From Asticcacaulis machinosus (GTDB lineage Bacteria; Pseudomonadota; Alphaproteobacteria; Caulobacterales; Caulobacteraceae), in contig NZ_JAQQKV010000002.1 of NCBI RefSeq assembly GCF_028550435.1, positions 186,001 through 250,000 on the forward strand: a DNA stretch of 64,000 nucleotides, given 5' to 3'. Made by a program: the position numbers and the translations under genes. The notes under the pieces were generated by a model, which made no database searches, had not been told where the DNA came from, and worked only from the letters and a program-made list of their open reading frames with translations. Positions 22,738-60,198 of this stretch are shown here, piece after piece; within the stretch, counting starts at the first letter, position 1; every line of letters starts with the position of its first letter.

Positions 22738-22763
22738 AAAAAAACCCGCCTCCTGGGCGGGTT
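22738..22763 (-). terminator. Attenuator-type intrinsic terminator
   Basis: On the minus strand AACCCGCC (22763-22756), a CAGGA loop, and GGCGGGTT (22750-22743) form a perfect 8-bp stem followed directly by TTTTT (22742-22738). It lies 27 bases after the leader peptide stop and 43 bases before the start of the P-loop kinase gene. Confidence 0.88.
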
Positions 22764-22790
22764 GGCGACGGTTCTGACCTCAGACGCGCT

Positions 22791-22856
22791 CTATCCCACC
22801 ACCGGTTCGGTGATGATAATAATCGCGGCGGCTACGATGAAAGCGGTCTTGGTCAT
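22791..22856 (-). CDS. Putative Ile/Val attenuation leader peptide
   Basis: A 21-codon frame opens at ATG 22856 and stops at TAG 22791. It starts MTKTAFIV, continues with AAAIIIIT and ends EPVVG: five Ile, three Val and four Ala among 21 residues. The four consecutive Ile codons (ATT ATT ATC ATC) and the paired GTG Val codons are what a branched-chain amino-acid attenuator needs to stall ribosomes. A self-pairing CACCG-AAC-CGGTG stretch covers its last codons, and a strong terminator follows. No good ribosome site is visible. No ilv gene lies downstream in this window, only a P-loop kinase. Confidence 0.55.
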   Translation of the reverse strand: MTKTAFIVAAAIIIITEPVVG

Positions 22857-44024: not shown

Positions 44025-45236
44025 CTAAATCCGCGCATCGGCAATGGCCGCGCCCCAGGTGGTGCGCCAGCGACGCTTGATCAGGGTCAGGCCGCCGAAC
44101 GCAATCACCGCCAGCACCGCAAAGCCGATCAGGCCCGGCTGATAACTGCCCAGTGCCTGTTTCGAGACCCCAAGGCTGGCCGCCAGATAAAAGCCGCCAA
44201 TGCCGCCGAACATACCCACCAGCCCCGTCATGACGCCGATTTCACTGCGGAAACGCTGCGGCACCAGTTGGAACACCGCGCCATTGGCCATACCGAGCGC
44301 GCTCATGCCGATGATCAACACAAACAGAGTGGCATAGGCACTGGGTAGCTTGACGCTCATAATCACCAGAGCGATTGCCGCCACCACATACATGATCGAC
44401 AGGGTACGGATGCCACCGATCTTGTCGGCCAGACCGCCACCGATCGGGCGCACCAGAGAGCCTGCAAAGACACATGCCGCCGTAAAGAAGCCTGCAATAA
44501 CGGGCCCCAGACCATATTCGACGTTGAAATAGATGTTGAGCGAGGAACTCAGGCCCACAAACCCGCCAAAGCTGACGCCGTAAAACAGCATGAACCACCA
44601 CGCATCGGGCTCTTTCAGGATGCTCAGATATTGCTCAAGCTTTTTGGGCGCGGGCTGATCCGGCGCATCCTTGGCAAAGAGCATGTAGATGACAAAGGCG
44701 ATGATCAGCGGAATGGTCGCCAGACCAAACACAGTCGACCAGCCAAACATCTTGGCCAGGGACGGCGCAAACAAGGACGCGAACACGGTGCCGGAATTGC
44801 CGGCCCCGGCGATACCCAGCGCAATGCCCTGATACTGCGGCGGATACCAGCGCGACGCCAGCGGCAGGGCCACAGCAAACGACGATCCGGCAACCCCCAG
44901 CACAACGCCAAGTGCCAGAATGCCTTCATAGCTGCTGACATTCAAAAGCCAGGCCAGCAATAGGCCGGAAATCACGATCATCTGGCTGATGGCGCCGGTC
45001 ATTTTCGGGCCGATACGGTCAACCAGCACACCATTGACCATGCGCAATAATGCACCGGTCAGGATCGGCACGGCAACCATAAAGCCTTTTTCGGCAGGTG
45101 TCAGGCCCAGATCGGCGGCAATCTGCACACCGAGGGCGCCCAGCAATACCCAGACCATGAAGCTCATGTCGAAATAGAGAAAGGCGGAAAACAGGGTCGG
45201 GGCGTGCCCGGCCTTAAGGAACTCTTTGGATATCAT
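44025..45236 (-). CDS. narK: Nitrate/nitrite MFS transporter
   Basis: The start chosen is ATG 45236 (MISKEFLKAGHAPTL), giving 403 residues, the normal NarK/NasA size. A longer open frame to 45581 lacks family sequence. Twelve membrane helices are visible, with the nitrate signatures GxxNxG-like AGAGNSGTVFASLF and GMFGGIGGFYLAA, and an MFS loop VDRIGPKMTGA. It moves nitrate in and probably nitrite out. It is divergent from nasT, and its leader can form hairpins like the NasT targets of the other two operons. Confidence 0.93.
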   Translation of the reverse strand: MISKEFLKAGHAPTLFSAFLYFDMSFMVWVLLGALGVQIAADLGLTPAEKGFMVAVPILTGALLRMVNGVLVDRIGPKMTGAISQMIVISGLLLAWLLNVSSYEGILALGVVLGVAGSSFAVALPLASRWYPPQYQGIALGIAGAGNSGTVFASLFAPSLAKMFGWSTVFGLATIPLIIAFVIYMLFAKDAPDQPAPKKLEQYLSILKEPDAWWFMLFYGVSFGGFVGLSSSLNIYFNVEYGLGPVIAGFFTAACVFAGSLVRPIGGGLADKIGGIRTLSIMYVVAAIALVIMSVKLPSAYATLFVLIIGMSALGMANGAVFQLVPQRFRSEIGVMTGLVGMFGGIGGFYLAASLGVSKQALGSYQPGLIGFAVLAVIAFGGLTLIKRRWRTTWGAAIADARI

Positions 45237-45304: not shown

Positions 45305-45382
45305 TCCGGTTCGTCCCGGAACACTGACCCTCGTTGGCCAGTTCCCCAATCGCTGTTATCTCTATCCATAAGCGATATGGCC
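45305..45382 (-). promoter_or_regulatory. Structured narK leader with ANTAR-like hexaloop hairpins
   Basis: Read on the minus strand, ACTGGCC-AACGAG-GGTCAGT (45342-45323) is a 7-bp stem with a six-base loop having A1 and G4. It is followed two bases later by TCCGG-GACGAA-CCGGA (45320-45305), a hexaloop with G1 and G4. Upstream, GGCCA (45382-45378) can pair with TGGCC (45340-45336), enclosing ATCGCT/AGCGAT, which would compete with the first hexaloop. No terminator T run follows. Confidence 0.4.
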
Positions 45383-45510: not shown

Positions 45511-46098
45511 ATGAATGTTCTGATTATCGATCCCGATGATGCCCGCGCGGCCCTTGTGGCCGAAGGCATACGCGCGGACACGGCTCATCAGGACGCCACC
45601 ATCCATCACTGGCCGCGGTTCGAACTGGCGCGCCTTAAGGACATCAACCCGGAGATGGTGATCATCGCCTGCGAGAGTCCTGATCGCGATACGCTTGATG
45701 CGCTCCAGATCGCCCATGAGCAGGCCCCGCGACCGGTGGCTATGTTCGTTGACCGCTCAGACGCCAACACGACGGCTGAGGCACTGGAGGCAGGCGTCGC
45801 CGCCTACATCGTCGATGGCTATTCACCGAACCGGGTCGCCTCGATCCTGACGGTCGCGACCCATCGCTTTAACCTGATGCAGACCCTTCGCAATGATCTG
45901 ACCAAGGCTAAGGCCGACCTAGCCGCGCGCAAGAGCATCGACCGCGCCAAGGGAGTTTTGATGACCTCACGCGGGATCAGCGAAGACGACGCCTATAAGA
46001 TTTTGCGCAAGCATGCCATGGATACCGGCCGGCCGATGGCGGCCGTCGCCGCCGATATTCTGGCTATATCCGGCCTTTTGAAACCGGGAGAAGGATAA
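45511..46098 (+). CDS. nasT: NasT, ANTAR-domain transcription antiterminator
   Basis: The start at ATG 45511 (MNVLIIDPDD) gives 195 residues; an upstream extension lacks family sequence. The N-terminal pseudo-receiver keeps the fold, but the phosphoacceptor region reads IIACESPDRD, with no Asp at the usual place as far as I can align. The C-terminal ANTAR domain (about 125-190) shows KSIDRAKGVLMTSRGISEDDAYKILRKHAM. NasT binds hexaloop hairpins in nitrate operon leaders and prevents termination when released by NasS. Its stop overlaps the nasS start (TAATG). Confidence 0.94.
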   Translation: MNVLIIDPDDARAALVAEGIRADTAHQDATIHHWPRFELARLKDINPEMVIIACESPDRDTLDALQIAHEQAPRPVAMFVDRSDANTTAEALEAGVAAYIVDGYSPNRVASILTVATHRFNLMQTLRNDLTKAKADLAARKSIDRAKGVLMTSRGISEDDAYKILRKHAMDTGRPMAAVAADILAISGLLKPGEG

Positions 46099-47237
46099 TG
46101 GTTCTAAGCCTGAAGATCGGTTTCAGCCCGCTCAACGACTCAGCCCTTGTGCTGCTGGGCGAGGCGCTGGGTTATTACACCGCCGAAGGACTGGATGTAA
46201 CGCTCAGCCGCGAAGCCAACTGGTCGAACATTCGCGACAAGATGTCTTACGGCCTGCTCGATGCGGCCCATGTGCTGGCGCCCATGCCATTGTCGCGCGG
46301 GCTGGGCCTTGGGCCTACTTTGGGCAAGATCATCGCCCCGATGGCGCTGGGCGCCAATGGCAACAGCGTGGTGGTATCGTCACGTCTGATGAACGCGCTG
46401 ATCCACGACGATAAAACGAGATTGCTGGATACTGCCCGCGCCCTTCGTGATGAGATTTCCAGGCGCCGTGCGGTCGGTGCACCCAAGGTCGTTCTGGCCA
46501 TGCCCTTTGCCTATTCGCCCCACCATTTCGTGCTGCGTCACTGGGTGGCCGCCGGCGGCATTGATCCTGACCGTCAGGTGCAGTGGGTGGTTTTGCCGCC
46601 GTCGCGGATGGCCGATGCCCTGCGCGACGGGGTGATCGACGGCTTCTGCTCCGGCTCACCCTGGCCGCAGATGGCACAGCTTAATGGCGACGGGCAGGTA
46701 CTGTTTTCCGACCCCGATTTCTGGACGCTCAAGCCCGAAAAGGTGTTAGGGGTGCGTGAACCGTGGGCCAATGAGAACCCTGATGGCGTGATTGCCCTGG
46801 TGCGCGCCTTGCTGAGGTCAGCACAGTGGGCAAAGGATGCCAGCACGTCCGATCTGGCTCAAATTCTGGCGCAACCGGGCTATGTCGGGGCACCGCTGGA
46901 GGCCATTGAGTTGGCCCTATCAACCGAAGGGGCCGGCCTGCTGCTTGACCCGCAAACCACGACCTTCCCGTGGATCAGTCATGCCAAATGGTTCATGGGG
47001 CAGTTCGTCCGCTGGGGGCTTACGACGCCGGAGCATGACTTTGACACCATTGCCCGCCAGATCTACCGGCCCGACCTGTGGCGACAGGCAGCAGCGTCTC
47101 TGGGGCTCGATATTCCTGCCACCGATGAAAAAACCGAAGGCGGTGAGCCCGTGCCGTGGACGCTGAACGCCACACCTAACCCCATTTTAATGCCCGCAAA
47201 TGAGCTGTTTGACGGTGGTATTTTCCGCAGCGCCTGA
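46098..47237 (+). CDS. nasS: NasS, cytosolic nitrate/nitrite sensor
   Basis: The 379-residue protein is a paralog of the nitrate-binding protein NrtA without a signal peptide: LKIGFSPLNDSALVLLGEALGYYTAEGLDVTLSREANWSNIRDKM, AAHVLAPMP, GANGNSVVVSS, FCSGSPWPQ, GVREPWANENP. In other alphaproteobacteria NasS holds NasT inactive until nitrate or nitrite binds. It shares one base with the nasT stop, so the two are made together. A weak AAAGGC/GCCTTT hairpin follows at 47286-47303. Confidence 0.93.
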   Translation: MVLSLKIGFSPLNDSALVLLGEALGYYTAEGLDVTLSREANWSNIRDKMSYGLLDAAHVLAPMPLSRGLGLGPTLGKIIAPMALGANGNSVVVSSRLMNALIHDDKTRLLDTARALRDEISRRRAVGAPKVVLAMPFAYSPHHFVLRHWVAAGGIDPDRQVQWVVLPPSRMADALRDGVIDGFCSGSPWPQMAQLNGDGQVLFSDPDFWTLKPEKVLGVREPWANENPDGVIALVRALLRSAQWAKDASTSDLAQILAQPGYVGAPLEAIELALSTEGAGLLLDPQTTTFPWISHAKWFMGQFVRWGLTTPEHDFDTIARQIYRPDLWRQAAASLGLDIPATDEKTEGGEPVPWTLNATPNPILMPANELFDGGIFRSA

Positions 47238-47430
47238 GCGATTAAGTCGGTAATTTCAAACGTAACCATTTTCCCCGCGCGCCCGTAAAGGCCCCAAAGC
47301 CTTTGAAACGGCGGTTTTGATGACCCTTTCGTGACATTTTTGCTGCACCGCATCGTCCCATATGAAAAATATTTCGCAAATGCACGAATTCCCATTGACG
47401 AAATACAAATTCGGGATGAGGCTCTAAGTA

Positions 47431-47505
47431 TAGCCAAGGACGGCTAAAGCGTTTTTATTCGCCAAGGGCGGCGTTTAAACCTCCACCATAAAGACATCGA
47501 CGTCT
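47431..47505 (+). promoter_or_regulatory. NasT (ANTAR) target RNA with three hexaloop hairpins, nitrate uptake operon
   Basis: Three consecutive stems carry six-base loops with A1 and G4: TAGCC-AAGGAC-GGCTA (47431-47446), CGCC-AAGGGC-GGCG (47460-47473) and AGAC-ATCGAC-GTCT (47492-47505). The last overlaps the 5' arm of the terminator at 47503-47560. This fits the known ANTAR antitermination design, with one extra hexaloop in the middle. Confidence 0.8.
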
Positions 47506-47560
47506 CAAGTTTTTATCGCACCGGTTTTCGATGCGAAAAATTCTTGAGGCGTTTTTTTTT
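47503..47560 (+). terminator. Leader terminator of the nitrate uptake operon
   Basis: CTCAAG (47504-47509) pairs with CTTGAG (47543-47548). An inner stem pairs TTTTTATCGCA with TGCGAAAAA, and a run of nine T residues follows (47552-47560). Two bases of the 5' arm belong to the third hexaloop hairpin, so the two structures exclude each other. Confidence 0.85.
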
Positions 47561-47584: not shown

Positions 47585-48832
47585 GTGGCAAAACTTAAGC
47601 CTACCGGAAAACTGCGCCTTTTTTTCTGCGCAACCACTGCATTGACATGCAGCATCATCTCAAATTCATCTTTCGCCCAAGAGACAGTTGCTGAAGCTTT
47701 ACAGGCGTCAAAGCCTATACTCGAATCCCGCCTGAGATTTGAGAACGTGACGCAAGCTGGCCTGCGTGAAACCGGCGCCTTAACGTGGCGCAACCGCGTC
47801 GGTTTTCAGTCCGGTGAGTTCAAGGGTCTGAAACTGCTGGCCGAAATTGAAGATGTTCGCGCCCTTGATGGCGACTATAACTCAAACCTGAACGGCAAAA
47901 CCGCCTATGCGGTCGTGGCCGATCCGGAAGTGACTGAAATTAACCGCCTGCAACTGATCTGGACGCCGTCAGCCTTTACAACCGTAACCGTTGGCCGTCA
48001 GCGCATCGCCCTTGATGATCAACGCTTTATCGGCTCGGTCGGCTGGCGTCAGGATGAGCAGACCTTTGATGCCGCCCGCATCGACACGGCTGTTGGTAAG
48101 CTGAAACTGACCTATGCCTATATCACCGGCGTTAACCGGATCCTCGCCGAAGCCCGCGACTGGGATTCACAATCCCATGTCCTGAATGCCACCTACTCGA
48201 TATCTGAAGCCTTGAAAGTTCAGGCGTTTGACTACGCGCTTGAGTTCGATAATGCCGCGGCCAACTCGACCAATACTTACGGGGTACGTGCCACCGGCAG
48301 CCTGTGGGCATCGATGTTCAAGCTGGCCTATGCCGCCCAGTACGCCGAACAAAAGGATTACGCCAACAATCCGGCTGACTTTAAACTGGCGCAGTATTCG
48401 GCTGATTTCAGCGCGACCTACGACATCTTTACCGCCAAATTGAACTACGAAGTGCTTGAGGGCAACGGCACGCAGGGCTTCATCACGCCACTGGCCACTG
48501 TCCATGCGTTTCAGGGCTGGTCGGATGTCTTCTCGGCCAACGGCGGCAACAAAACCCACGTTAACGGCATCAAGGACATGAATTTCAGCCTGATCGCGGC
48601 CACCCACACCAAGGTGCCGTGGCTGATCAACCCGACCTTTACCGTCATTTACCGCGACCTTGAGACCGAACGTACCGGTCAGGCACTGGGCACCGAATGG
48701 GATGCGCTGGCCACAGCCGGCCTGACCAAAAACCTCAGCCTGATGCTGAAATATGCTGACTTTGAGCGCGCCAATACGGCGGCCCCCGCCTCCCGCACCA
48801 AGGTGTGGGTCGGCCTTGAATATAAACTTTAA
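47585..48832 (+). CDS. Outer-membrane channel of the nitrate operon (alginate-export-like porin)
   Basis: The start chosen is GTG 47585, 12 bases after a GGGGA ribosome site. An ATG at 47531 is inside the leader terminator and cannot be the start. The 415-residue product has a signal peptide ending SSFAQ, then alternating beta strands with aromatic girdles (GVRATGSLWASMFKLAYAAQYAEQKDY) and a final strand ending VWVGLEYKL, all typical of a 16-18-strand outer-membrane barrel. It resembles alginate_exp-type porins. First in the operon with the nitrate ABC importer, it probably lets nitrate through the outer membrane. Confidence 0.82.
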   Translation: MAKLKPTGKLRLFFCATTALTCSIISNSSFAQETVAEALQASKPILESRLRFENVTQAGLRETGALTWRNRVGFQSGEFKGLKLLAEIEDVRALDGDYNSNLNGKTAYAVVADPEVTEINRLQLIWTPSAFTTVTVGRQRIALDDQRFIGSVGWRQDEQTFDAARIDTAVGKLKLTYAYITGVNRILAEARDWDSQSHVLNATYSISEALKVQAFDYALEFDNAAANSTNTYGVRATGSLWASMFKLAYAAQYAEQKDYANNPADFKLAQYSADFSATYDIFTAKLNYEVLEGNGTQGFITPLATVHAFQGWSDVFSANGGNKTHVNGIKDMNFSLIAATHTKVPWLINPTFTVIYRDLETERTGQALGTEWDALATAGLTKNLSLMLKYADFERANTAAPASRTKVWVGLEYKL

Positions 48833-54339: not shown

Positions 54340-54370
54340 TTGACATTTTTGCAAAAGACAGGCGTAATAA
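54340..54370 (+). promoter_or_regulatory. Candidate sigma-70 promoter of nirB operon
   Basis: TTGACA (54340-54345) and TAATAA (54365-54370) are spaced 19 bases. This is slightly long, but it would start the RNA near 54377, exactly where the first hexaloop hairpin begins. Confidence 0.4.
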
Positions 54371-54376
54371 AACCAC

Positions 54377-54454
54377 AGACCAATGAGGGTCTAACGAAAT
54401 TCGCCGTTTCCCGTCAATGATGACAGGTGATGGCTCCATAGGACAAAGATGTCC
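54377..54454 (+). promoter_or_regulatory. NasT (ANTAR) target RNA with three hexaloop hairpins, nirB operon
   Basis: Three stems with A1/G4 six-base loops follow one another: AGACC-AATGAG-GGTCT (54377-54392), GTC-AATGAT-GAC (54413-54424, extendable to CC/GG with a bulged A) and GGAC-AAAGAT-GTCC (54441-54454). The third overlaps the 5' arm of the leader terminator. The layout parallels the leader at 47431-47505. Confidence 0.82.
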
Positions 54455-54501
54455 CGCAACCCGTAAAGGCTCCGCGCCCCAAGGGTTGCGGGATTTTTTT
54501 T
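54453..54501 (+). terminator. Leader terminator of the nirB operon
   Basis: CCCGCAACCC (54453-54462) pairs perfectly with GGGTTGCGGG (54483-54492), then A and eight T residues (54494-54501). The first two bases of the 5' arm are also the last two of the third hexaloop hairpin. Confidence 0.9.
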
Positions 54502-54540: not shown

Positions 54541-57021
54541 ATGGACAACAAACAACGCATCGTGGTGATCGGAGCCGGCATGGCCGGTGGCCGCATCGTC
54601 GAGGAAATCTTAAAGCGCGACTCGTCGAGCTTTGACATTTCGATCATCGGTGCCGAAGCCTGCGCCACCTATGACCGTATTCAGTTGTCGCCGGTTCTGG
54701 CCGGTGAGAAAAGCTTTGACGATATCGTCACCCACTCTCAGGAATGGTACGACTCCAACGGCGTTAAGACCCACTTCGGCTACTGGGTGCAACAGGTCGA
54801 CCGTGAGGCCAAACAGGTCATCCTGCACGACGGTCAGGCCATCGGCTATGACTATCTGATCCTGTCGACCGGCTCCGATCCGATCCGCCTGCCCTTGCCC
54901 GGTTCTGACCTTCAGGGCGTAGTCGCCTTCCGCGATCTGCACGATGTCGATTTGATGCAAAAGGCTGCGGAGCGTGGCGGCGAAGCGGTTGTGATCGGTG
55001 GCGGTCTGCTGGGGCTGGAGGCCGCCTACGGTCTGGCCAAGCGCGGTATGAAATCGACCGTTATTCACCTTGTCGATGTGCTGATGGAACGGCAACTCGA
55101 TGAGGCCGCAGGCCGCCTGCTGGAAAAAGCCCTGCTGGAGCGTGGTGTGATCTCGGTCCTCAGCGCCCAGTCCGAAGCCATTGTCGGGGAAACCCATGTC
55201 GAGGGACTGAAACTCAAAGACGGCCGCATCATTCCGGCCTCATTGCTGGTTATGGCCGTCGGCATCCGCCCGCACGTTGAACCGGCTAAATCAGCGGGTC
55301 TTACGGTCGAGCGCGGCATTGTGGTCGATGACCAGATGCGCACCTCAGACCCCAGCATCTTCGCGGTTGGTGAATGCGTGCAGCATCGCGGCGCCTGCTA
55401 CGGCCTTGTGGCCCCGATCTGGGATATGTGCCGCACCTTGGCCGATGTGCTGACGGGCAAGAACCCGGACGCCGCCTATTACGGCTCAGAGCTTGCCACC
55501 CGCCTTAAGGTTTCCGGCGTCGATCTCTATTCCGCCGGTCAGTTCAATGGCGGCGAAGGCTGCGAGGACATCGTCTTCCGCGATCCGGGCCGCGGCGTCT
55601 ATAAGCGCGTGGTCGTTAAAGACAATAAGCTGGTCGGCACCGTCCTGTTCGGTGAAGCGGCTGACGGGGCGTGGTATTTCGACCTGATCAAGAAGGGCGA
55701 AACCATAGAGGGTATCCGCGACACCCTGATCTTCGGTCAGGCGGTGACGGAGGCCCTGGCCGGCGTGGACCCTAATGCCGCCGTTGCAGCATGGCCCGAC
55801 GACACAGAAGTGTGCGGCTGCAACGGCGTTACCAAGGGTACAGTGGTTGAAGCGATCTGTGGAGGCGCAGACAATCTCGATAAGGTGCGCGGCTGCACGA
55901 AGGCTTCGGCGTCGTGCGGGTCATGTACCGGCATTGTCGAGCAACTGCTGAAGGTGACGCTGGGTGATGCGTTTAAGGCCCAGACCGGCCCCAAGCCGAT
56001 GTGCAAATGCACCGAGCACGGCCACCAGCATGTCCGCAAAGCGATCGTGGAACAAGAACTGAAAACCATCCCCGACGTCATGCAGGCCATGAAGTGGTCG
56101 ACGCCCGATGGCTGTTCCTCATGTCGTCCGGCGCTGAACTATTACCTGCTGTGCGCCTGGCCGCGCGAATATCACGATGATCCGCGCTCACGCTTCGTCA
56201 ATGAACGCAACCACGCCAACATCCAGAAAGACGGCACCTATTCGGTCGTGCCGCGCATGTGGGGGGGCGTGACCTCCGCCAAGGAACTGCGCGCCATCGC
56301 CGATGTCTGCGATAAGTTCGATGTGCCGATGGTCAAGGTCACCGGCGGTCAGCGGCTTGATTTGTTTGGTATCAAAAAGGCCGACCTGCCTGCCGTTTGG
56401 GCCGATCTCAATGCCGCAGGCATGGTCTCCGGCCACGCCTATGCCAAGGCGTTGCGGACGGTGAAGACCTGCGTTGGCTCCGAATGGTGCCGGTTCGGGA
56501 CGCAGGATTCAACCGGGCTAGGCATCAAGCTGGAGCAGGATACCTGGGGCTCATGGATGCCGCACAAGTTCAAGATGGCCGTGTCGGGTTGCCCGCGCAA
56601 CTGCGCCGAAGCCACCATCAAGGACTATGGCGTGATCTGTGTTGACTCTGGCTATGAACTGCATGTCGGCGGCAATGCCGGTATCCATCTGCGCGGCACC
56701 GATTTGCTGTGCAAGGTGGCCACCGAAGCCGAAGCGCGCGACTATTCGATGGCCTTTGTTCAGCTTTACCGCGAAGACGCGTGGTATCTGGAACGCACCG
56801 CCCCGTGGATCGAACGCGTCGGGCTGGAGTTCGTCAAGACGCAGTTGTTTGACGAAGAAACGCGGGCTGACCTCAAGGCCCGTTTCCTGGAATCCCAAGC
56901 CGTGTTTCAGGTTGATCCGTGGGCGGAACATGCCCCGAAATCAGAACCGGCCAAGGTCTTTTCGCCACTGGCTGACCTGCGCGAAGGCGTCGATCAAGGC
57001 GCTCTCAAGGAGAATGTGTGA
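54541..57021 (+). CDS. nirB: Assimilatory nitrite reductase, large subunit
   Basis: The ATG at 54541 (MDNKQRIVVIGAGMAGG) gives 826 residues. In order: FAD domain with IGAGMAGGRIVEE, NAD domain with VVIGGGLLGLEAAYGLAKRG, a BFD-type [2Fe-2S] segment with CGCNGVTKG and CGSCTG, a ferredoxin-like sulfite/nitrite reductase half-domain, and the siroheme/[4Fe-4S] site (CVGSEWCRFG and GCPRNCAEA). It reduces nitrite to ammonium with NAD(P)H in the cytoplasm. It is first in the operon with nirD, nasA and cobA, and is controlled by a NasT-type leader. Siroheme is supplied through cobA. Confidence 0.97.
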   Translation: MDNKQRIVVIGAGMAGGRIVEEILKRDSSSFDISIIGAEACATYDRIQLSPVLAGEKSFDDIVTHSQEWYDSNGVKTHFGYWVQQVDREAKQVILHDGQAIGYDYLILSTGSDPIRLPLPGSDLQGVVAFRDLHDVDLMQKAAERGGEAVVIGGGLLGLEAAYGLAKRGMKSTVIHLVDVLMERQLDEAAGRLLEKALLERGVISVLSAQSEAIVGETHVEGLKLKDGRIIPASLLVMAVGIRPHVEPAKSAGLTVERGIVVDDQMRTSDPSIFAVGECVQHRGACYGLVAPIWDMCRTLADVLTGKNPDAAYYGSELATRLKVSGVDLYSAGQFNGGEGCEDIVFRDPGRGVYKRVVVKDNKLVGTVLFGEAADGAWYFDLIKKGETIEGIRDTLIFGQAVTEALAGVDPNAAVAAWPDDTEVCGCNGVTKGTVVEAICGGADNLDKVRGCTKASASCGSCTGIVEQLLKVTLGDAFKAQTGPKPMCKCTEHGHQHVRKAIVEQELKTIPDVMQAMKWSTPDGCSSCRPALNYYLLCAWPREYHDDPRSRFVNERNHANIQKDGTYSVVPRMWGGVTSAKELRAIADVCDKFDVPMVKVTGGQRLDLFGIKKADLPAVWADLNAAGMVSGHAYAKALRTVKTCVGSEWCRFGTQDSTGLGIKLEQDTWGSWMPHKFKMAVSGCPRNCAEATIKDYGVICVDSGYELHVGGNAGIHLRGTDLLCKVATEAEARDYSMAFVQLYREDAWYLERTAPWIERVGLEFVKTQLFDEETRADLKARFLESQAVFQVDPWAEHAPKSEPAKVFSPLADLREGVDQGALKENV

Positions 57022-57540: not shown

Positions 57541-60198
57541 ATGACCACCTTTCCCCAATCGACAACCTGCCCCTACTGCGGCGTCGGCTGCGGGGTTAAG
57601 GCGGTCGTAAATAATCGTCAGATGACGGTGACCGGCGATGAAACCCATCCCGCCAACCAGGGCCGGTTGTGCTCCAAAGGCACGGCACTCGGCAACACCT
57701 TTGGCCTTGAGGGCCGGTTGCTGGAGCCGCGTATTCGCCGCAATGGGCAGATGGAAACGGCGACATGGGATGAGGCGCTTACGACAGTTGCCGCCAAATT
57801 TGCGCAGGTTATCCGCGACCACGGCCCCGATGCGGTGGCGTTTTATGTCTCAGGACAGTTGCTGACCGAGGATTATTACGCCGTCAACAAACTGGCCAAG
57901 GGCTATATCGGTACGGCCAATGTCGACACCAACTCACGGCTGTGCATGTCGTCCGCTGTTGCCGCCCATAAGCAAGCGTTCGGGGCCGATCTGGTGCCCG
58001 GCACCTATGACGACCTGACCGAGGCCGACATGCTGGTATTCTCAGGTCACAACGCCGCCTGGACCCATCCGGTGCTGTACCGCCGGATAGAGACGCGGGA
58101 AAACCAGTTCCGCGTCTGCATCGATCCTAAGCGTACCGATACGGCTAAGGCGGCCGATCTGCACCTGATGATCAGACCGCAAACCGATATCCGCCTGTGG
58201 AACGGATTGTGTGCGCATCTGATTGCCCGCGATGCACTCGATCATGATTTCATTGATCAGCATACGGAGGGCTATTCGCGCCTGATGGCGGCGTTGAGCA
58301 CCGACGATCAGAGCCTTGATGCCATAGCCGACGACTGCGGCATTTCGGTTGCTGATCTTAAGCGCTTTTACGACGGCTTTTTGCACACGCCCAAGGTGGT
58401 CAGCCTGTTTTCGATGGGTTCAAACCAGTCATCGCAGGGCGTGCATAAGGGGCTCAGCCTGATCAATGCCCACCTGCTGTCGGGTAAGATCGGTAAACCG
58501 GGCGCGGCACCGTTTTCGATCACCGGTCAGCCCAACGCAATGGGCGGCCGCGAAGTTGGTGGCCTCGCCAACATGCTGGCTGCCCATATGGATTTTGATG
58601 AGGCGTCCAAATCCCTTGTCCAGCGTTACTGGGGATCGCCAACCATCGCCCCCAAGGCCGGACTGAAAGCCGTCGATATGTTCGAGGCGGTGCGCACGGG
58701 CAAGGTCAAAGCGATCTGGATCATGGCGACCAACCCGATGGTGTCCATGCCCGACACTAATAAGATTCATGAGGCCCTGTCGGGCTGCGAACTGGTGGTG
58801 GTGTCGGACGTCATCGCCCGCACCGATACGATGGACATGGCCCATGTTCAGCTTCCCGCAGCCGCGTGGGGCGAAAAGGACGGCACGGTCACCAACTCTG
58901 AGCGCGTTATATCCCGTCAGCGCAATCTGGTGCCTCTGCCGGGTGACGTGCGCCCTGACTGGGCGATTATCGCTGAGGTCGCCCGCCGCATGAATACTGA
59001 CTGGGTGTCGGCATTTAATTGGGCAGGGCCGGATGAGGTCTTTGCCGAACATGCCGGCCTGACCGCCTTTGAAAATGATGGCAAACGCTTCCTTGATCTG
59101 GGCGGCCTCACCGGCATGTCCAAGGCCGAATATGACGCCCTCCAGCCGGTGCGTTGGCCGTTCAAATCCGATGGCCTGCCCTCAGATCGTCTGTTCGCCG
59201 ATGGTCAGTTCAACACCCCCAACGGCCGCGCTCGTCTGATCGCGCCGATTGTACGCTGCCCCGCCAATCAGACCACACCCGAATTTCCATTCCACCTCAA
59301 TTCGGCCCGCGTGCGCGATCACTGGCACACCCTGACCCGCACGGCCTTAGCGCCGGAACTGAACCGCCACCTGACCGAGCCACTGCTCGATATCCACCCC
59401 AAAGACGCCCGTCGCCTGCACATCAAGGACGGACGGCTGGTGGTCGTGACGACGGCCTGGGGTGAGGCCATCCTGAAAGCCCGCGTGACCGATGATGTGC
59501 GCGAGGGATGCTTATCGGTGCCGATGCACTGGACGAAGCAGTTCGCACCGTTTGGCCGCTCGAACCAGCTTATCAATCCGGCGGTTGATCCCATATCAGG
59601 TCAGCCGGAATTCAAGCACACCCCGGCCAATGTGCGCGCCTATAACGAAGCCTGGCACGGCTTTGTCATGGCGCCGCGCGACTTTGACGGTGAGTTGCCG
59701 ATTTGGCCTGATGACACCATCTGGCGGCGTACCACCCATGCCCATGCCGACTGCTTTGAAATTGCCGGGATTGCTCCGGTCGATATCGCATCGGTTGAGG
59801 CCAATCTGATCCTTGAGGATGCGACCACCGGCCTGACGCGGCGGGTGCGGGTTGAGGATGGGCGAATTACACGGGCGATATTCCTGGCCCCGATCCATAA
59901 AAAGCTGCCCCCGCGCGACTGGCTGCTGGAACGCTTTGGCGATGCCGAACTGAACCCTGCCGACCGCGCCGCCCTGCTGATCGGGCGGCTGCCGGGGATG
60001 CAGGACAAAGGCCGGATCATCTGCGCCTGCCGGTCTGTCGGCGAAAAAGTCATTCTGGCGGCCATCGAAGACGGCGCAAAAACCGTCGATGAGATCGGTG
60101 AAATCACCACCGCTGGCACGTCATGCGGGTCGTGCAAGGGCGAACTGAAACAATGCCTGCTGAAACACGCCATCAAAAAGGAGCCGGTTCATGCGTAA
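57541..60198 (+). CDS. nasA: Assimilatory nitrate reductase catalytic subunit
   Basis: The 885-residue enzyme has the N-terminal [4Fe-4S] motif with Cys10, Cys13, Cys17 and Cys44 (CPYCGVGCGVK, GRLCSKG), the molybdopterin oxidoreductase core with MSSAVAAHKQAFG and GQPNAMGGREVGG, a dinucleotide-binding domain (about 590-710), and a C-terminal BFD-like [2Fe-2S] domain (CACRSVGE, CGSCKGELKQC). It reduces nitrate to nitrite at bis-MGD molybdenum. No separate NADH-linked small subunit gene is present, so electrons may come from ferredoxin, flavodoxin or another partner. mobA, moeA, moaB and moaA nearby make its cofactor. Confidence 0.96.
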   Translation: MTTFPQSTTCPYCGVGCGVKAVVNNRQMTVTGDETHPANQGRLCSKGTALGNTFGLEGRLLEPRIRRNGQMETATWDEALTTVAAKFAQVIRDHGPDAVAFYVSGQLLTEDYYAVNKLAKGYIGTANVDTNSRLCMSSAVAAHKQAFGADLVPGTYDDLTEADMLVFSGHNAAWTHPVLYRRIETRENQFRVCIDPKRTDTAKAADLHLMIRPQTDIRLWNGLCAHLIARDALDHDFIDQHTEGYSRLMAALSTDDQSLDAIADDCGISVADLKRFYDGFLHTPKVVSLFSMGSNQSSQGVHKGLSLINAHLLSGKIGKPGAAPFSITGQPNAMGGREVGGLANMLAAHMDFDEASKSLVQRYWGSPTIAPKAGLKAVDMFEAVRTGKVKAIWIMATNPMVSMPDTNKIHEALSGCELVVVSDVIARTDTMDMAHVQLPAAAWGEKDGTVTNSERVISRQRNLVPLPGDVRPDWAIIAEVARRMNTDWVSAFNWAGPDEVFAEHAGLTAFENDGKRFLDLGGLTGMSKAEYDALQPVRWPFKSDGLPSDRLFADGQFNTPNGRARLIAPIVRCPANQTTPEFPFHLNSARVRDHWHTLTRTALAPELNRHLTEPLLDIHPKDARRLHIKDGRLVVVTTAWGEAILKARVTDDVREGCLSVPMHWTKQFAPFGRSNQLINPAVDPISGQPEFKHTPANVRAYNEAWHGFVMAPRDFDGELPIWPDDTIWRRTTHAHADCFEIAGIAPVDIASVEANLILEDATTGLTRRVRVEDGRITRAIFLAPIHKKLPPRDWLLERFGDAELNPADRAALLIGRLPGMQDKGRIICACRSVGEKVILAAIEDGAKTVDEIGEITTAGTSCGSCKGELKQCLLKHAIKKEPVHA

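Follow-up and report, generated by a model that had tools for sequence, protein, structure and literature searches.

Candidate three-hexaloop ANTAR-target leaders upstream of nirB and the porin-nrt genes of Asticcacaulis machinosus

Introduction

The region upstream of nirB in Asticcacaulis machinosus raises the question of whether an ANTAR-target leader is limited to two hexaloop hairpins. The target of ANTAR proteins is defined as a dual motif in PMC3369931, PMC8934654, PMC8164766 and PMC7496416. The minimal site is redefined as one hexaloop in PMC8934654, where the model of Walshe 2022 has the ANTAR dimer move from a first hairpin (P1) to a second (P2). An ANTAR dimer seems to contact one hexaloop at once, and the need for two is unsettled. 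Leaders that carry three hexaloops at similar gaps, with a middle stem that varies, offer a way to tell a relay from independent docks or spares. Here we describe such leaders in a window of 64,000 nucleotides (the whole stretch of DNA that was analysed) and in related genomes.

Results

The predicted nirB promoter (54340..54368, + strand) consists of TTGACA at 54340-54345, a 17-nt spacer and a weak -10 hexamer, CGTAAT, at 54363-54368. The first hairpin, H1 (54377-54392, +; AGACC-AATGAG-GGTCT), begins 8 nt past this hexamer, has 5 bp and an A1/G4 hexaloop, and is predicted to lie at about +1. Further A1/G4 hexaloops are carried by the tip of H2 (54413-54424, +; GTC-AATGAT-GAC) and by the 4-bp H3 (54441-54454, +; GGAC-AAAGAT-GTCC), which overlaps the 5’ base of an intrinsic terminator (54451..54501, +) made up of a 10-12 bp stem and eight T (54494-54501). 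The 10-bp stem pairs CCCGCAACCC with GGGTTGCGGG (54453-54462 and 54483-54492). H3 shares two bases with it, or four if the stem is extended to 12 bp by the outer U-A and G.U pairs, and the terminator base and H3 are mutually exclusive. Folding of the segment 54360-54520 gave a z score of -5.25. The three hexaloop hairpins, the two bases shared with a perfect 10-bp stem before eight T, and a start-to-start distance from H1 to H3 of 64 nt here and 61 nt in the uptake leader had all been proposed in the initial annotation, and the sequence agrees with it on each. Its description of the middle hairpin, as having only three uninterrupted pairs, holds for the tip, but this tip caps a longer stem (54403-54434, +) of GCCGTT/GATGGC followed by CC/GG, which in folding amounts to 6 + 2 + 3 bp separated by 1x1 mismatches. 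Between H1 and H2, the motif ATT(C/T)GC (54399-54404) is kept across 17 aligned nirB leaders; in the window all but its last two bases are unpaired, and it may be another contact or a pause site.

The leader of the porin-nrt (uptake) genes has the same order, three hexaloops and then a terminator. A predicted -35 element, TTGACG (47395..47400, +), lies 36 nt upstream of H1 (47431-47446, +; TAGCC-AAGGAC-GGCTA). H2 (47454..47479, +) has its tip, CGCC-AAGGGC-GGCG, at 47460-47473 and an outer stem that is weak, with four pairs (z -1.35), and H3 (AGAC-ATCGAC-GTCT) lies at 47492-47505 (+). The terminator (47499..47560, +) pairs GACGTCTCAAG with CTTGAGGCGTT and ends in a run of nine T (47552-47560). 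The first ATG of the porin frame (47531) falls within the terminator, and translation probably starts instead at the GTG at 47585, directly before an apparent signal peptide.

For each leader, none of 200,000 dinucleotide shuffles reproduced the cluster, taken as three A1/G4 hexaloops within 90 nt, all with stems of at least 3 bp and two of them of at least 4 bp. When the window was scanned on both strands, two such clusters were found on the + strand, exactly the nirB and porin-nrt leaders, and none on the - strand. The same two leaders were the strong matches (E 9.8e-15 and 3.0e-13) of a genome search with a three-hexaloop model derived from Asticcacaulis leaders, R1, in which 150 of 2,169 first-look candidates were scored; the third-best match had an E value of 0.98. 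Rfam at its gathering thresholds gave no match at either leader. Elsewhere in the window, at 22741-22826 (-), Rfam matched the Pseudomonas sRNA P9 (RF00624; 51.7 bits, cut-off 43), which is unexpected in Asticcacaulis.

Compared with published ANTAR targets, both window leaders have stems of at least 3 bp with hexanucleotide loops, A1 and G4 in all three loops, an intrinsic terminator overlapped by the last hexaloop and, counting the outer H2 stem, gaps between neighbours near 5-12 nt. Each loop is closed by a C:G pair, as in the NasR SELEX consensus (C:G closing pair, A1/G4; PMC7496416), and so are 72 of 72 loops in selected leaders. The genome encodes one cognate ANTAR protein, NasT, whose gene adjoins nasS (NMT1-like), the arrangement of NasS-NasT regulation. 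Where the published dual motif has exactly two hexaloops, three are present here. The nirB leader thus has every tested feature of an ANTAR antiterminator except the number of hexaloops.

The surrounding genes point to nitrate. A narK-type MFS transporter gene (44025..45236, -) is divergent from nasT (45511..46098, +), the sole ANTAR protein gene found in the genome, and nasT is followed by nasS (46098..47237, +), which encodes an NMT1-like putative nitrate sensor. Downstream of the uptake leader on the same (+) strand, protein matches identify an Alginate_exp-type porin and an NMT1-like nrtA, and two more open reading frames among the nitrate genes read as a putative ABC permease and ATPase. 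nirB (54541..57021, +) encodes the large-subunit type of an NADH-dependent nitrite reductase; downstream of it lies a gene for a nasA-type nitrate reductase (57541..60198, +), a molybdopterin oxidoreductase with a C-terminal BFD-like [2Fe-2S] domain. NasT is known also from Azotobacter and Pseudomonas. The NasT of the window is 99% identical to that of Asticcacaulis sp. UBA2476, and among 25 Asticcacaulis genomes exactly one ANTAR match was found in 21 and none in 4. When NasT is aligned with EutV (6wsh), the RNA-contact residues R142, K143, K149, E160, Y164, R168 and M172, as named in PMC8934654, fall on identical residues by our own reading of the alignment, in which positions are shifted by two; EutV K147 aligns with R and N173 with D, and R175 and R177 are unmatched, with G and P in their places. 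That two operons belong to one regulon under NasT was part of the initial annotation. With a sole ANTAR protein encoded beside NasS and two strong R1 sites, a single NasT regulon of nirB and porin-nrt is the best reading of the sequence, and narK, which the initial annotation of this leader does not name, probably belongs to it as well.

The narK gene has a 5’ leader with a dual hexaloop (45305..45341, -), a probable further target. Its first hairpin (45324-45341, -; CTGGCC-AACGAG-GGTCAG) and its second (45305-45320, -; TCCGG-GACGAA-CCGGA) are 3 nt apart and lie about 70 nt upstream of the narK start, and no U-tract terminator was seen at this leader. The R1 match here is partial (7.1 bits), since R1 models three hairpins. 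A narK-type hexaloop pair was found at 14 of the 30 loci that were scanned for it (L001-L010, L132-L151). These pairs represent 11 distinct sequences, and every one of them precedes the start motif seen at the window narK; the loops are variable and retain G4 together with A1 or G1. The narK leader is a probable NasT target with a different output. Conserved GGGGA and TCCCC flanks in this leader could pair. A pairing of its 5’ end, GCGATT, beside the ribosome-binding site was considered and rejected, as it is not kept in L010, L137 and L140.

Conservation was assessed at nirB loci located by NirB homology in 149 genomes, which yielded 55 places in 54 genomes; 50 of these were examined, leaving G059, G115, G008, the second G043 place and the G099 fragment. 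All three hexaloops were present in 17 of 19 same-genus nirB upstream regions, the window's included, which were chosen by protein homology only; a twentieth same-genus NirB match (G099), a fragment lacking the gene start, is outside the count. The nirB leader of locus L095 has an H1 loop of 7 nt, and at L094 nirB has no leader because a coding sequence lies directly upstream. No three-hexaloop leader was found before nirB at 31 loci of other genera. One of these other-genus loci, L105, has two A1/G4 hairpins close together and a third, G-C-closed, 83 nt further upstream; a terminator was looked for there and none was found. Twenty stretches were read for additional leaders and 14 of them contained one or more; 17 non-nirB leaders, the window's included, were located for alignment. 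Where downstream genes were checked in relatives, they were nirB, a porin or a NarK-type MFS gene.

Alignment A2 comprises 24 leaders, 12 from nirB and 12 others, mostly porin- or narK-type. Its nirB rows are 12 of 18, the near-duplicates L084, L085, L091, L098 and L099 and the 7-nt-loop L095 having been left out, and its other rows are 12 of 17, without the near-duplicates L154, L157, L159, L164 and L004. Across A2, G4 occurs in 72 of 72 loops and A1 in 71 of 72 (24/24 in H1 and in H3, 23/24 in H2, the exception being L155 with G1 in H2), and the closing C:G pair and G4 are invariant across all three loops, an invariance that is partly due to selection because the porin- and narK-type rows were picked by a hexaloop detector and L095 was excluded. 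The same-genus nirB count of 17 of 19 is free of this effect.

The stems of A2 covary. Pairing was possible in 93.4% of 335 cells against 80.8% in shuffled alignments, 61 cells changed on both sides against 21.4, and the covariation score was 0.472 against 0.224 for shuffled and 0.067-0.110 for slid versions. Pairs with double changes were in mild excess (9 against 6.9; 34 of 500 shuffles reach 9), and further pair types showed no excess (20 against 20.1). Four of the five H1 pairs changed on both sides, and H3 is nearly constant, with three of four pairs fixed, as would be expected of a hairpin that must also pair within the terminator. Read along the alignment, stem sequences differ in a compensated way from species to species, and also among the operons of a single genome; A1 and G4 are kept.

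Single folds of 29 distinct leaders placed hairpins at the H1, H2 and H3 positions in all; in one, L160:1577-1649, H1 is drawn through a mismatch and the common type of outer H2 stem is absent. Where a loop ends in T, a pair between A1 and U6 is often predicted, leaving a tetraloop. In most H2 domains, the inner stem with its hexaloop sits on an outer stem, from which a small internal loop separates it, and outer-stem sequences vary among leader groups. Column counts from a MAFFT alignment, A1, were discarded as a measure of this outer stem, as some rows are one column out of register; it was therefore judged by per-sequence folds and shuffled flanks. With the inner hairpin fixed, the H2 domain had z < -1 against shuffled flanks in 22 of 24 leaders and z < -2 in 15 of 24, with a mean of -2.47. 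Counting the outer stem, the H1-H2 and H2-H3 gaps are 10 and 6 nt in the nirB leader and 7 and 12 nt in the uptake leader; without it they are 20 and 16 nt and 13 and 18 nt. Across 24 leaders, the H1-H2 gap is 9-10 nt in 14 (range 3-16) and the H2-H3 gap 6-7 nt in 15 (range 1-13). In the Enterococcus faecalis eut system, the linker is 5-12 nt long and lengths of 3 or 14 nt impair induction (PMC3369931), and 20 extra nucleotides in the linker end antitermination in vitro (PMC8934654). By shortening the gaps, the outer H2 stem thus appears to bring the loops within the working range of EutV.

All 24 leaders tabulated, the two of the window and 22 others, have a TTGAC element 36-39 nt ahead of H1; with a 17-nt spacer, this would place H1 at about +1, in keeping with the RNA start near 54377 considered in the initial annotation. 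Because their -10 hexamers are poor, these promoters may require an activator.

The picture outside the genus was drawn from the best 80 NasT loci of a longer list, scanned with a strict detector (A1 or G1, G4, a closing C:G and at least 4 bp) and assigned to groups by hand. Rhizobial-type leaders, a few unplaced records included, had one such hexaloop upstream of H3 in 57 of 63 cases and two in 6; the corresponding counts were 7 and 1 of 8 for Rhodobacterales, and all three Methylobacterium leaders had one. In Asticcacaulis, two were found upstream of H3 in 10 of 14, the other four failing the detector by a 3-bp tip or a mismatch. The detector found no leader at 11 of the 80 loci. R1 did not recover the rhizobial or rhodobacterial leaders of this sample, its strong matches being in Asticcacaulis only and the rest having E values of at least 0.066; the distribution outside the genus therefore rests on motif detectors and on loci read individually. 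Directly upstream of many rhizobial NasT leaders (e.g., in L018 before 12046 and 15541) there is a TGGCAC...TGC element, which we take to be sigma-54-like. The leader promoters of Asticcacaulis, unlike these, are of the TTGAC type.

Inspection of 29 of the loci matched by R1 (L200-L228), the weaker remaining matches aside, yielded 14 leaders from other genera, 4 more from Asticcacaulis and 11 non-leaders, which were coding sequence or had no terminator. In the other genera of the family, an A1/G4 H1 of 7-9 bp lies upstream of H3, itself located by pattern, in all 14 leaders. The middle hexaloop has G4 with A1 or G1 in 12 of 14 (G1 in 10 of these 12), although 8 of the 14 leaders share an identical middle hairpin sequence and are thus not independent; in the exceptions, the middle loop has 7 nt (L203) or lacks G4 (L217). 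The replacement of A1 by G1 with G4 kept agrees with a structure in which G4 makes the only base contact. In the five leaders folded in register (L200, L203, L205, L206 and L207), H1 and H2 are separated by one more small hairpin. The gene downstream was an Alginate_exp porin in five of six other-genus leaders tested and a NarK-type MFS gene in one. ANTAR proteins were found in 12 of the 14 genomes and none in G053 (80% complete) and G018. The leader of G018 (L217), where H1, H3 and the T run are kept, the middle loop has no G4 and no ANTAR protein was found, is perhaps decaying.

The rhizobial counts bear on whether all three hexaloops are sites for NasT. If only H2 and H3 worked as a dual motif, as in rhizobia, H1 would be a 5’-end hairpin that protects the RNA. 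This is in keeping with the single hexaloop upstream of H3 in most rhizobial-type leaders, with the non-hexaloop hairpin that several of them, read by eye, carry closer to the presumed 5’ end, with the predicted position of H1 at about +1 and with the 7-nt H1 loop of L095. A protective hairpin, however, would need neither A1, G4 nor a closing C:G, and H1 keeps all of these in 24 of 24 selected leaders while four of its five pairs change on both sides; the A1/G4 H1 is also kept throughout the other-genus leaders. We consider this explanation unlikely. A second alternative, with H1 and H2 as the functional dual motif to which NasT is recruited and H3 as no more than a displaced piece of the terminator base, is less likely still. 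The H1-H2 gaps of the two window leaders do fall inside the EutV range of 5-12 nt (PMC3369931), but H3 has A1, G4 and a closing C:G in 24 of 24 selected leaders, and in eut, loop changes in the terminator-overlapping hairpin lower both induction and binding (PMC3369931). A reading of the inverted repeats as DNA operators, bound by a repressor or activator at the promoter, rather than as RNA hairpins is hardly credible. In its favour, the predicted start coincides with an interrupted palindrome (H1), some forms of which read GATC-N6-GATC, but compensating stems with fixed loop positions 1 and 4 are the opposite of what a DNA operator would be expected to show, and the third inverted repeat overlaps the terminator.

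Folding of the full leaders gave the terminator state an advantage over H3 of 4.7 kcal/mol (nirB) and 6.0 kcal/mol (uptake), and RNA ending at H3 folded as three hairpins, which fits the needs of a kinetic switch. With H3 enforced in the nirB leader, an 8-bp stem remained, set back from the U tract. As modelled by these folds, the relation between terminator and H3 matches that described for EutV and NasR.

Discussion

The nirB leader is very probably a nitrate-responsive attenuator under NasS/NasT that has three hexaloops, not two, and the porin-nrt genes very probably carry the same switch. From the sequence, we infer the start site, NasT binding, the order of binding and the response to nitrate. 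Without nitrate, NasT would be held by NasS; H1, H2 and H3 would form successively, and the 12-bp terminator, whose stem includes the 3’ arm of H3, would win and stop transcription at the U tract. With nitrate, released NasT would bind the exposed hexaloops with G4 flipped into the ANTAR pocket. By holding H3 it would keep the terminator base beside the U tract open, allowing read-through into nirB-nasA, and porin-nrt would respond to the same NasS/NasT switch. H1, at the 5’ end, would catch NasT first and pass it to H2 and then to H3.

A wider reading, which we put forward tentatively and regard as somewhat short of probable, is that the NasT target in Caulobacteraceae-type genomes is a true three-site RNA, in which H1 at +1 would load the NasT dimer on emerging from the polymerase, the elongated H2 would relay it and H3 would fire antitermination, and that the terminator-free narK dual hexaloop would be a second NasT output with a mechanism other than intrinsic termination. 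H1 could be dispensable. For this family of ANTAR-target leaders, the two-hairpin model appears too narrow, and the sites described here outline a compact nitrate regulon for Asticcacaulis. We found no description of a three-hexaloop ANTAR leader in searches of the open-licence literature, nor, among the matches listed there, any mention of Asticcacaulis.

The proposed switch shares its protein components with the NasS-NasT systems of Paracoccus and Bradyrhizobium. In Paracoccus, nitrate dissociates NasS-NasT and NasT binds the nas leader (PMC3795266), and in both, nitrate-freed NasT binds a leader and brings about read-through (PMC3795266, PMC5424462, PMC6759348). The leaders are presented there as hairpins HI and HII, as a series of hairpins or as ‘NasT-interaction hairpins’, with no three-hexaloop description in the available parts of these papers. 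The Klebsiella nasF leader, the target of NasR, likewise serves nitrate genes by attenuation and has A1/G4 hexaloops closed by C:G (PMC7496416). NasR itself senses nitrate and acts on a two-hairpin target (PMC7496416), whereas here NasS and NasT would split these roles and the leader has three hairpins. The EutX/Rli55 RNAs are alike in combining a dual hexaloop with one extra G4 hexaloop within one RNA, but each is a separate RNA that sequesters EutV and not a leader before a target operon (PMC8934654). The eut leaders regulated by EutV in E. faecalis resemble the nirB leader in their short stems, their A1/G4 hexaloops and the overlap of the last hexaloop with the terminator (PMC3369931, PMC8934654), and NasT carries most of the RNA-contacting residues of EutV. 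They differ in having two hexaloops, where the nirB leader has three, with H2 raised on an outer stem and H1 at the predicted 5’ end.
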